From Loxodes magnus (Eukaryota; Ciliophora; Karyorelictea; Loxodida; Loxodidae): DNA of 64,000 bases. The notes below the pieces were generated by a model. It was not told the DNA's origin. It ran no database searches and saw nothing but the letters and a program-made list of their open reading frames with translations. Location: positions 744,001 to 808,000 of the forward strand of contig CAMPDV010000039.1 of assembly GCA_946699065.1 (NCBI GenBank), in the 5' to 3' direction. The position numbers and the translations under genes are program-made. Below, one piece after another: positions 5,063-60,533 of this stretch; positions within the stretch are counted from its first letter, which is position 1, and each line of letters opens with the position of its first letter.

Positions 5063-8000
5063 ATGATTTTAAAGGAGCTAATATTTATAAGCTTGATTAA
5101 CTTTTGCTTAGCACTACAATGTCTTCAATTTCTACCTGGTAACAAAAAAGTTTTTTCATGCTTGTACTGTGAGTAAAACATAGGTTATACAAAGCTTTGC
5201 GAATCAGATATTTACTAGTATTGTCGCATCATTTCTAAACATAATTTTAGTGAATGTTCAGTTAAAACTAACCCAATAGGCTCTTATTGCAAAAAAGATT
5301 ATTAATGCTAAACCAATTACTGTGTAGATGGGATTTGCTTTCCTTTGAATAATACTATATGCTCATCTCATGGAGATTGTAATGCAGGATACTTTTGTAA
5401 TAATTAAAGTTAGGCATGCGAAAAATAAAAACTTGAAGGATAATCATGTAAAAACCCTCCTGAGTGCTTAAACAATCTAACTTGTAGCAAAGATACTTGC
5501 GTTCCTTTCTTATCACTCAAAAACGGATAAGAATGCTAAAAATAGCAAAATAACCCTTCTGTAACTGTATGCTAAAGCTAGTTTGTTTTGAATTGAATTG
5601 AAGCAGAGGTGTGATTCTTATCATGTGACTCTATGTATTGCTAATAGCAAAAAAACACATAACTATATCATTGTGTCGAGCCTCCTGTTAATATCAATAA
5701 ATATCCAATTCAATGCACAGAAGAAACCTATAAAAATGATTGCTAGTATGAAACTGGAGATTATGGGCCTTGTAGTTGTTCTATATCAAGGAACCAGAAT
5801 AATTCTTATTGCAGAGTGGAAATGTCAAGCAAATATGCAAGATTGTTTAAATAAGACTTTAAGAGATATATAGTTCCCTTTTTATCTCTAACTAACAACA
5901 AATGCCATACTCTTTATAAATTCAATTTTGAATGTTGAAAAATTTACCTTAATGATTTTGCTTTAACTATACTAAGTGGCGTATTTCTAATGGAGTGATA
6001 TCCTATTTTAAATAATGGAATCGAAGTTGATCAAATTGATGATTCATCTTTGTATGCTCTCTAAGTAAAAAATGGAATCAAGTTTGATTATTATAGAGCT
6101 AAAAGGTTCTTATATTAGCATGACAAATGCTATATATTTTAATGCTAAGATCTAACTGATAATTCATGTGTCTATAGAGTTGATGATGTGTAATATTTAG
6201 ACCCTTGTCTTGATTCTTAATTTTGTAAATGGAGCCAAGATTTAAATAATTATAGAACAATACCTTGCTAAAAGAATTTAAGTCTGATTAAAGAAAATTA
6301 TTAGTATGCAGGTACTTTCTGTAAATAGAACAGTGATTGCATTTCCAATAAATGTAAAAACTTCAGATGCTGAGGATAAAAAGAAAACTAATCTTGTACA
6401 GAGGAAACAGATACATGTGGAGTAGGCTTAGTATGCATCGATAAAATATGCTAAGAATAAATAAAACCAGAAGAAGATAGAAACTGTACAAAAGATTCTG
6501 ATTGTACTAATGAAGCTGTTTGTGTTGGAAGTAAATGCATCAAAATGTTTTCACTTTAAATTAATGATACTATGGATGCACCATGTGATTTAGATACAAA
6601 GCAATAATACGCTTGTGAGTCTTTAACTTGTGAACCTTTAACACTCGAGAATATCTAATCAGCATGCACTTATCCTTATAAAAGCTAAGTAATACCCCTA
6701 AAGACAGAAAATAAGTGAGATTGTAGAAGTATAAATAAAAATAAAGAAATTAATTTTGTTAATCTTTCTTGTGATTACAAAGAAGGAGATACTTACTGTG
6801 GTGCTCATACAGGTGATAAGGTTACTCTAGAATACATTGAAGCTCTTAAAAAAGTGATGGGACTGGATTAAGATATTTGCCATAGTAATGTAAGATTATC
6901 CATATACTGTTGACTTTATAATATGGAGTAGGATAATATAGATCTGTTTGCTCAGTATATAATAAAATATAATGAATGAAAATATTATCCAGCTTTATAG
7001 TAGAATTTTACCGAAGAATGTACTTAATAAATAGTGTTTAAAGACTACTGAATAGCTAAAACTTAAGGATTAAAGAAGTAATATTATCCATAAATATAAT
7101 GCTATGATCATGGATGTAACTAAAACTACAACGTAAAAGAGTTTTAGTGCTAAACATTAATTCCAGAAGATTAATTCTATGTTCACTAAGTATGCTAAGG
7201 TCAATAATTTTGTAATAAAAGTGATGAAATTAATTGAGAAACAGGAATTCAGTACTTTGGAGAGTGAAATTGCTCTAATTTAAAATTAAATGAAGCATAT
7301 TGATATCTTCCAGGATCTCCATGCTTTAATGAGATGAAGGATTATTAAAATAATTCTAAATAAATCTGCTATTTTGATGCTTAAGCAGTTAAGAGTTAAA
7401 ATGAGTAATGTGAAGATTCTTAGGATATAACTTGCGAAGCTGGAACGTTTTGCATAAAACTTGAAAACGAATAAGATTATACTTGCTAGAAATAAATAAA
7501 GCCTGGAGAAAATAAAATTTGTGAAAATGATTGATAGTGTGTCAATTATGCTGTTTGTCGAGAATAATAGTGTGTTGAAATGTTTTCAAAACCAGTAGGT
7601 TGAAAGTGGAAAGGATAGTGTAAAGATATTTTATTCACAGGTTATTGTGAATATTGTAACTTTGCTTGTGAGAGTTTTACTTGCTAATAAAATGGAGAAT
7701 TCGCAACTTGTATAGAACCTTTTAACTATGATTGAATTCCTTGTGCATATAATAGGGATTGTGTAGTAAAAAACTCCTAAAATATAGAAGTGACAGGAAA
7801 ATGCATATGTAATAGTTAAGGAGTAGCATATTGTGAAGCTTTTTCAGGTTCAAGTGTAACATTAAGCTATATAAATGCTTTAAAAGGAATAATGAAAGAT
7901 GATTAAGATATTTGTTAATCCTTCTTTAGAAGTTCCCCTTTATGCTGATAAAATAACTCAAATAAATTGGACATACATAAGCTTTATAAGAAAGAAATAG

Positions 8001-58200: not shown

Positions 58201-60533
58201 TTCAATCCTCTGATTAATGTGTACTTAAAACTAGCTTTGATTCATATGAATCAGCTAAAAATTATATAGACGAAGATTTTACCTCTGAATGTTAAAAGTA
58301 TAGTTGCTAGAGCGACAAATCTAAATCAATTGAATAGTATTCTGACAAATGTACACATTATAATAAAACTTAAAATACTATCTGAGTAAGAAAATGTGAA
58401 AAAAATGAAAAATGCTTAATCAGTGATGAAGATGAAAACTATTGTGAAGGAAAAGTATTAGATATTAAAAATTTATATCCTGGAGCATATTGTAAGATTG
58501 ATGAATAGTGTATTAAAGGAATAAGATGCAAAAATGGTATTTGTTAAGGAAAAGAATTAAATCAAAATTGCGAGAATAGTAATGATTTTTCATGTAATGT
58601 AGGATTAGCCTGCATTTTAAACCAAACTAATTAAACTTTTTAATGCTAGTAATAAATAAATTCATCAGGGTGTGAAAATGACTGATAATGCATTAACTCT
58701 TAGATTTGTAGAAATAGCAAGTGTATTGATTACTTTAGTGCTCCTTTAGATTTTTATCTCTATGATTAAAATTGTACATTAAACGTCACTTAATATGCAT
58801 GTGAAAGTTTTACTTGTACACAAAGCAAATGAGCTCAATGTACCGAACCTTTTAATTCTGTATAGTAGGCCTGCTACTTTTAAACGGATTGCACAATTTC
58901 TAACAGTAGAAATGAAATTATTATTTAAAGCTGCAAATGTGTTAAAGATAATAATAGCACTAATAGATATTGTGAAGCAGGAACTAACTCAGAGCAAGCT
59001 TTAGAATACAAAAAATAGTTTTTAAAGTTATTTAAAAAAGATTAAGGAAAATGCCATACCAAAAGAAGATTAGAGCCTTAATGTTGAGAGCAGAACTTTG
59101 TGTTTAATTTCACATGAGAAGATATTTTAGAAGTTTACAAACTAAAATAACTTGAATATGAATTCTTTTTATTTCCAGAAGCTTAAAAAGCAGATGATTG
59201 CACATTGTTTGCCTATTATCCTGAATATTGATTTGCTAAAAACTTAGAAAGTCTTGAATAACTAGGATACGAAGTAGATTCTTTTGCCTTAATATCTTAT
59301 AATTTAAAAATATACATTTCAATAAGTATTATAGCATTAGCACTTTGCTTAGTATTGATTTAATGGAATATTTTTATATAACTATAAAAAAAAATTAGAT
59401 TCATGAAGCTTTATAATTTCCTAGGTAAAGAAGAAGTTTTTGACCTTTATATTCAAATATTAGAAGAACTTGAAAGCAAAAAAATAGAAATTTTATATTT
59501 TGATAATGTTATTAATTCTATCTAATCCAAAATAGGAGAAGGGGGATTTGGAAAAGTTTTCAAGGGAAAAATAAATTAATAAAAAGTAGCCATTAAAATA
59601 GCTAATAAAGCAATCTAAAATCATGAGTAAATTTAAGAGTATTTAAAGGAAGTTATTATAGCTATGGAACTAAAATCAGAATATTTGCTTCAACTAAGAG
59701 GAATATGCATTGATACTAAAAATCAGTTCTGCTTCGTTACGGATTTAATGAGCACTTCATTATATAAACTTCTTTACGAAGGATAGAAATGATAAGAAAT
59801 AGATATTTTAACTAAGTTAAGAATAGCTTTATAAATAGCATATGGAATTAAAGATCTTCATCATCATCCTAAATAAATCATTCATAGAGATTTAAAGCCT
59901 GAAAATATTCTTTTAGATGAAAACTTTAATATCAAAATAGCTGATTTTGGGATATCGAAGTTTATTGGAAGTAAGACAGGAGCTAATAAATTTGATGATC
60001 ACTATATTGGAACCATTTAATATATGGCTCCTGAACTTTTCACTGAATCTGAGATAAATTCCGCAGTCGATATTTGAGCTTTCGGATGCATATTGAACGA
60101 GATATTTGACGTAAGTAGACCTTGGAAAAATCAAGATACTAGAAGTATAATAACTAGTTTAATGTAGAATATGCATCATGAAGTAAACAAAGCAATGAAA
60201 GGTGAGTTAAGAGAGATGGTTATGAAATGCTTCAATGTAAATCCAGATAAGAGACCTAAAATAAAAGAAATAGTTAAACTTCTGAAGAAAATAATAGATT
60301 AAAACGAAATAGCCTCTAATTTAGATGAATAAGTGTTGAACTAATATACTCAAAAATATCTTTCCTTTTAAGTAGAGATAAAGCAGTTAGATATAAAGGA
60401 TAAATAAATTAGAAAGTTTACATCTTACAATGAAAGTCTTCAAAGTAATTATATTAGTGAAGATCTTGAAACTCAATAAAATAAGTTTTTGAATTTAGAC
60501 GCTCCTTTAATAACTGAGTCTAATGAACTCTAA
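55205..60533 (+). CDS. receptor Ser/Thr protein kinase K5
   Basis: Full-length paralog of 1,769 residues. The signal peptide is [19 protein letters not shown] (second codon TAA read as Gln). The Cys-rich ectodomain includes [14 protein letters not shown] and [17 protein letters not shown], then one membrane span ([18 protein letters not shown]). The kinase has [33 protein letters not shown] and MAPELF, followed by RRPWK-type C-lobe sequence. After removing the 19-nt intron, the length is an exact multiple of three. The family end SNEL is followed by TAA. The ectodomain shares near-identical blocks with K4 (for example [18 protein letters not shown]) and others with K1 and K3, consistent with exchange among copies. 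Confidence 0.93.
58181..58199 (+). other. 19-nt micro-intron of K5
   Basis: GTAAGTCTTTTAAATATAG at the family site. Reading through it gives a nonsense composition, and splicing rejoins IQSSDQCVLKTS. Confidence 0.88.

Follow-up and report, generated by a model that had tools for sequence, protein, structure and literature searches.

The 64,000-nucleotide stretch analysed here (the window, bases 744001-808000 of contig CAMPDV010000039.1, hereafter C39) comes from the ciliate Loxodes magnus and carries five very large genes, K1 to K5, which are very probably functional members of a large Loxodes family of receptor kinases. All five have the layout of a single-pass receptor kinase, and a location at the cell surface is predicted from it. 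We favor this reading because the frame, the intron site and the kinase motifs are kept in 21 of the 22 members that were read to their ends, and because ratios of nonsynonymous to synonymous change (dN/dS) are purifying, N-glycosylation sequons are in excess outside, the cysteines are kept, and the kinase has recognizable relatives. It also rests on a distant member with 35% identity, L056, which keeps the same build, and on a kinase-less branch with a signal-like start and a tail resembling a glycosylphosphatidylinositol (GPI) signal. In the mechanism we propose, the protein would enter the secretory path by way of the signal-like stretch at its N-terminus, its exterior would consist of four tandem disulfide-rich and N-glycosylated modules, one helix would span the membrane, and a TKL-like Ser/Thr kinase would lie inside. 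The ligand bound by the modules may be a protein or a glycan, which could well sit on a different cell or on the coat of the cell itself; receptors brought together, presumably as dimers, would then phosphorylate each other and relay a signal.

The macronuclear assembly of L. magnus is reported as 706 Mbp, with introns that are tiny (mode 17 bp) and with translation table 27, in which TAA and TAG encode glutamine and TGA is either tryptophan or stop (PMC11441545). The window genes fit this karyorelict code, and both their code and their tiny introns agree with the genome paper (PMC11441545); the applicable table is therefore 27, not the NCBI code 28 proposed in the first-pass annotation of this DNA. 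No codon is a stop in every context under table 27, so we call a gene intact when frame, alignment, and conserved residues are held from end to end, and not for a lack of stops. The longest stop-to-stop frame in the window is 114 codons under the standard code and 926 codons with TGA as the sole stop, and callers of stop-to-stop open reading frames (ORFs) do miss these genes, as the annotation had warned. Our gene models agree with it on five intact giant kinases in both orientations, each with one tiny intron (Table 1). K1 and K2 encode 1,768 residues, K3 1,766, K4 1,761, and K5 1,769, and K2-K5 are 67-76% identical to K1 when compared per exon. The intron reads GTAAGT...AG and lies at the identical codon site in all five genes; in K4 its length of 18 nt is a multiple of three, so that the frame of this gene appears unbroken.

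The glycine loop, the VAIK lysine, the alphaC glutamate, HRD, DFG, and APE are present in K1-K5 and in 21 of the 22 members, which bears out the earlier description of a kinase with all its catalytic residues. Pfam PF00069 matched in each of the genes scanned (E 4.6e-53 in K1, 6.4e-51 in K4, and 1.8e-51 in K5). Tyrosine kinases typically carry HRDLAARN or HRDLRAAN in the catalytic loop. Here the loop is HRDLKPEN in 20 of 22 members and HRDLKLQN in one (L030, by row order), L031 being out of frame, and a tyrosine-kinase reading was dropped for this reason. Relatives of the kinase among solved structures include EGFR, CTR1, TNNI3K, and ABL, and plant receptor kinases make up most of the 96 matches to the kinase that fall in proteins of about 1-3 thousand residues. 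Hydropathy places one strong peak at about residue 1355-1362 in each of K1-K5, followed by basic residues, and the single membrane span of the first description thus stands.

The assembly (705,730,643 bases on 7,843 contigs) was searched with both exons of K4, and the best 46 of 274 first-look candidates were scored for exon 1 and the best 58 of 3,880 candidates for exon 2. Matches to the two exons pair in 44 cases, and in 41 of the 44 the exons lie 16-24 nt apart. The union of the matches comes to at least 60 loci on 26 contigs; two of the 60, including one on C39, match exon 1 and have no exon 2 to pair with it. At least 23 loci lie on C39 itself, at 563,632-1,204,763 (~640 kb), split 13 to 10 between the two orientations. 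The diverged member L056, used as a query, added a locus with a kinase on C130 (L058) and a match on C869, which is left out below as its kinase part was not looked at. Kinase evidence is thus found at at least 59 loci, at least 22 of them on C39, a count of loci that includes haplotype copies, comes from the best candidates scored, and is neither a number of genes nor an upper limit. Equal scores for C632 and C1526, and for C130 and C869, mean that some loci are perhaps haplotype copies. The clustering reported by the first-pass annotation holds, and its count of five paralogs was too narrow.

Beyond K1-K5, another 17 members were followed to their ends (in L029 and L031 the intron escaped the automatic rule and was placed by hand), and 16 of these show a single frame, the conserved intron site, and every kinase motif. 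Judged by eye, L056, which ranks last among the best 58 exon-2 matches, has four modules, a span, and a kinase. It might be argued that most copies are inert by-products of duplication, with a few that act and others that are expression-silent spares, and there are probable relics in the window, two exon-1 matches without exon 2, a slipped frame in L031, and missing TGA ends in K1, K4, and K5 that would fit. We regard this as very doubtful, given that 21 of the 22 copies keep their frame over about 1,730-1,780 codons together with the kinase motifs and nearly all cysteines, and given that dN/dS between copies is well below 1.

Selection was estimated between paralogs by the Nei-Gojobori method at the scale of domains. 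Among 13 close members, median dN/dS was 0.29, 0.28, 0.29, and 0.32 in the four modules and 0.24 in the kinase, and none of the 78 pairs exceeded 1 in either. Other regions are looser: the medians were 0.47 in the signal stretch (10 pairs above 1), 0.49 in the stalk and span (3 pairs), 0.32 in the juxtamembrane part (2 pairs), and 0.40 in the tail (no pair). In eight distant members the signal stretch had a median of 1.17 and the tail one of 0.60, and the medians of modules and kinase lay at 0.15-0.31; each comes from 8 to 27 of 28 pairs, the others being saturated or without silent change. The highest values for 40 codons among the window genes were 0.64-0.78 (one almost unchanged stretch of 40 codons aside), and they fall where modules 2 and 4 begin and in the region of the span. 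The family had been called diversifying; at domain scale these ratios do not support positive selection on the exterior.

Exchange between copies has also left its mark. Silent divergence between window genes drops from ~0.6 to 0.02-0.11 in exterior codons 441-600 and 801-920. None of 1,000 shuffles equalled the longest silent-identical run in 5 of 78 pairs, which are K1-K2 across the kinase and, within the exterior, K1-K4, K2-K5, K1-K5, and L012-L016. The two trees place K2 differently: with K3 and L012 for the exterior (support 100/100), with K4 and L010 for the kinase (95/97). Gene conversion or recombination between copies would be the simplest reading of this pattern, and uneven silent constraint may be an alternative. 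At domain scale, constraint and partial homogenisation appear to describe the family better than a drive to diversify. We propose that its copies arose by duplication nearby, in either orientation, and that they exchanged sequence while purifying selection acted.

The ectodomain of ~1,330 residues, Cys-rich and of the length first described, is not a single block: it consists of four tandem homologous modules of about 320-345 (~330) residues, which in K4 occupy residues 18-346, 347-665, 666-1008, and 1009-1333. This repeat rests on six-frame tblastn self-matches and on an alignment of 20 module copies from K1-K5; a self-BLASTP of the modules returned no rows. All 20 copies agree in 30 columns, of which 20 are cysteines, and 15 exon-1 sequences down to 38% identity agree in 164 columns, of which 82 are cysteines. 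At least 21 of the 22 members keep 120 of the 124 cysteines of K4, and in 21 members the ectodomain holds 116-120 cysteines, compared with 4-8 inside. The exteriors of these 21 members contain 515 N-glycosylation sequons where shuffles give 269, and their cytoplasmic parts contain 29 where shuffles give 43. Together, sequons and cysteines support a domain that would be extracellular, disulfide-bonded, and glycosylated, and the excess of sequons outside suits the exterior to ligand recognition, the role that had been suggested for it.

No relative of the ectodomain was found in a set of 5.8 billion proteins with K4 residues 1-1330 or the 15-sequence alignment A5 as query, in searches that required shared 5-residue words and limited candidate length, other karyorelict genomes being outside their scope. 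Profiles A1 and A3 found no relative in the PDB, and Pfam scans of the K1, K4, and K5 exons, the 20 modules, and the kinase-less proteins gave no known exterior or surface-antigen family. Two AlphaFold models had a mean pLDDT of 57 and 69, and weak matches to Dickkopf/colipase-like folds, among the matches listed, offer at most a weak lead to the possible fold of the ectodomain.

The same ectodomain plan is common to the clustered kinase branch and to a kinase-less branch of seven dispersed loci. The L056 search led to L057 on contig C29, which lacks a kinase and has four modules with an intron at the conserved site, its chain ending ...YDSAYLNLFYGITLVLLYLL at a TGA. With L057 as query (best 50 of 255 candidates scored) six more kinase-less loci were found, on C29, C289, C5, C4, C35, and C145. 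None of these six has an exon-2 match among the best 58 of 3,880, and the K4 kinase had no match on the coding strand in the 0.8-1.7 kb past the stop at any of the seven. On the opposite strand, however, L060 (2095-2322) and L061 (2114-2341, both numbered along the strand as searched) each have a short kinase match downstream of the stop (residues 1542-1621, 40-41% identity, E 5e-15 and 7e-15), presumably a neighboring gene in the same arrangement in both. By eye, all seven N-termini carry a signal-peptide-like stretch, and all seven C-termini a small-residue stretch and a hydrophobic tail that ends at TGA. Since this is the pattern of a GPI-anchor signal, the branch looks GPI-anchored. An intron of 18-19 nt is present in module 4 of three of the six (L061, L063, and L064) at the place homologous to that of the module-3 intron of the K genes, as expected if an intron-bearing module multiplied. 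In the module-4 tree, one branch splits the 7 kinase-less from 14 kinase-type rows, though its support (81/70) is not strong. L061 and L062 have a long acidic or charged low-complexity insert in module 4.

The two branches differ in their use of TGA. Exon 1 contains 0-4 TGA codons in kinase-less loci and 9-23 in full-length kinase-type matches, and tryptophan in L057 is encoded by 20 TGG and no sense TGA, compared with 5-9 TGG and 17-28 TGA in kinase members (without L031), where about three quarters of tryptophans are TGA-coded. In the module-4 part the other six kinase-less loci sum to 25 TGG and 5 TGA, with two of each in L059. Avoidance of TGA in this branch could come from high expression or from caution against premature stopping, and the contrast is a natural test of the limits on UGA decoding in a context-dependent code.

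Ciliate immobilisation antigens are GPI-anchored proteins with hydrophobic termini and tandem repeats of periodic cysteines (PMC3341644), and the kinase-less proteins follow this plan with hydrophobic ends, tandem repeats, and regular cysteines. The ectodomain could then be mainly a structural or protective coat, with the kinase branch monitoring coat integrity or turnover instead of foreign ligands, and strong constraint with exchange between copies would fit such a conserved scaffold. We consider this somewhat unlikely, though the most credible of the alternatives, because some 60 loci with a kinase, their ectodomains as little as about 35% identical, are a large number for a single housekeeping monitor. 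In addition, immobilisation antigens have 5-6 repeats of 60-100 residues and no kinase (PMC3341644), whereas the window genes have a kinase and four modules of ~330 residues, and the Pfam scans made gave no surface-antigen family. The kinase-less proteins themselves had no Pfam link to immobilisation antigens, hydrophobic ends being the feature found.

A receptor reading gains from the GPI-like branch a concrete hypothesis about the partner. It is conceivable, if highly speculative, that both branches form one contact-recognition system, in which GPI-anchored coat ligands would be read on neighboring cells by the receptor kinases. The cells so recognized would be those of self, kin, or a mating partner, with the 640-kb array on C39 serving as a recognition locus. 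Such a system would parallel, in a ciliate, those cases where a receptor kinase has the same ectodomain as a protein without a kinase, as SRK and SLG do at the plant S-locus.

The first-pass annotation knew of no described family with this exact architecture, which remains so for the ectodomain, as no relatives were found, but does not extend to the kind of architecture. A Cys-rich exterior, one span, and a related kinase are also combined in Entamoeba TMKs and plant CRKs. Plant CRKs have a Cys-rich exterior and one span, and plant CRK/RLK kinases are related to those of the window, but the CRK exterior carries PF01657 (Stress-antifung/DUF26), which at E<=1 had no match in the K1, K4, and K5 exons or the 20 modules. 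The B1 TMKs of Entamoeba histolytica share a signal peptide, a Cys-rich exterior (~900 residues), one span, a cytosolic tyrosine-kinase-like domain, and membership in a large gene family of 35 genes (PMC2880585). They differ in that six of the 35 B1 genes are full length, compared with 21 of 22 Loxodes members read, and in that TMK exteriors are rich in CXXC, of which the window genes have two each among 116-119 exterior cysteines. No sequence link was found between TMK exteriors and the Loxodes exterior. Loxodes is a phagotroph, and the ectodomains might bind the surfaces of food cells and trigger phagocytosis. A similar build in Entamoeba, where one TMK acts in phagocytosis of red cells (PMC2880585), lends this idea some appeal; nevertheless we find it improbable, as the ectodomain had no similarity to anything in the searches made and the sequence holds no pointer to prey.

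What looks new is the ectodomain and its scale in a ciliate. Reported TKL kinases number 13 in Ichthyophthirius, 5 in Tetrahymena, and 15 in Paramecium (PMC3341644, Table 3), and karyorelicts are described as having fewer and less-diverged paralogs per family (PMC6935857), so that a family of giant receptor kinases at about 60 loci, haplotype copies among them, with an exterior that the searches met nowhere else, is unexpected. The Loxodes family would be an independent case beside the expansions of receptor kinases in plants and Entamoeba. No report of it was found in the literature searched, with preprints and most subscription journals outside the scope, and the word "kinase" is absent from the main text of the genome paper (PMC11441545).

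Several observations weigh against the receptor-gene reading. Any conserved surface protein, receptor or not, may show a low dN/dS. The kinase appears Ser/Thr-type and TKL-like, a placement by best hits and not by a kinome tree. The signal peptide of the first description is clear as a hydrophobic peak above 1.6 (19-residue window) in K1, K3, and K5, but the peak is below 1.6 in K2 and K4, though their N-termini align with the others. L031 (contig C231) has a frame slip at the end of exon 1 and matches in exon 2 from query residue 237 on, and is either a pseudogene or an assembly error. Finally, 18 of the 21 intact members reach a TGA at about exon-2 codon 750-790, and K1, K4, and K5 have none there: a TAA directly follows their conserved ...NEL/NEI end, and the next in-frame TGA lies 43, 116, and 131 codons further on, respectively. 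Either TAA may terminate near the poly(A) tail in Loxodes, or the tails of these proteins may be longer. According to the genome paper UGA is the sole stop, yet it reports that UAA as well as UGA is depleted before stops (PMC11441545). The earlier end of K5 at 60533 had taken this TAA as a stop; the gene is confirmed and its exon 2 ends three bases earlier.

Table 1. Features of the window (positions within the 64,000 nucleotides) and entries of the kinase-less branch
Feature	Position	Strand	Basis
K1 exon 1: signal-like stretch, modules 1-2, most of module 3	5063..8029	+	gene model, module alignment
K1 intron, 17 nt, GTAAGTTTTTGATTTAG	8030..8046	+	
K1 exon 2: rest of module 3, module 4, membrane span, kinase, tail	8047..10383	+	
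K1 kinase, Pfam stretch	about 9376-10140	+	
K1 TAA after conserved end	10384	+	
Short match, profile positions 285-336; probable relic	15746..15898	+	E 3.3e-7
K2 exon 2, including stop TGA	17400..19733	-	gene model
K2 intron, 19 nt	19734..19752	-	
K2 exon 1	19753..22725	-	gene model
K3 exon 2, including stop TGA	27857..30184	-	gene model
K3 intron, 19 nt	30185..30203	-	
K3 exon 1	30204..33176	-	gene model
Fragment, family profile positions 369-545, rest missing; probable relic of a dead copy	36113..36646	+	E 5.8e-75
Short distant match, profile positions 4-130; possible relic	37972..38328	+	E 1.6e-6
K4 exon 1, opening with signal-like stretch	41492..44455	+	gene model
K4 module 1	41543-42529	+	
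K4 module 2	42530-43486	+	
K4 module 3	from 43487 into exon 2	+	
K4 intron, 18 nt	44456..44473	+	
K4 exon 2: rest of module 3, module 4, span, kinase, tail	44474..46792	+	
K4 module 4	44534-45508	+	
K4 span	about 45572-45628	+	
K4 kinase	about 45785-46573	+	
K4 TAA after conserved end	46793	+	
K5 exon 1	55205..58180	+	gene model
K5 intron, 19 nt	58181..58199	+	
K5 exon 2: rest of module 3, module 4, membrane span, kinase, tail	58200..60530	+	
K5 kinase, Pfam stretch	about 59523-60278	+	
K5 TAA after conserved end	60531	+	
Kinase-less branch entries	L057 1-3999; L059-L064; L065-L071		

Around the genes, bases 36036-36604, which overlap the relic fragment, are 86% identical to K5 as DNA. A Met-starting frame at 46793-48992 (+), in the same frame as K4, opens ~24 codons past the conserved end of that gene and has no Pfam match. 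Ten non-family ORFs or stretches near the genes likewise had no Pfam match at E<=0.01, and no companion gene can be named from them. A block of 528 bp lies 5' of K2 and K3 (23171-23698 and 33811-34337); by frame comparison it is non-coding, and its two copies are 98.7% identical, which exceeds the similarity of the adjoining genes. The 3' flanks of K3 and K5 (26417-27106 and 60649-61350) are 68% alike and inverted, and because this similarity is equal in all frames they are taken as non-coding; we take the likeness as the probable footprint of a duplicated unit longer than the gene. Inside this cluster of Cys-rich receptors there is also a tRNA-Cys (GCA) gene, at 13049-13122 (-).

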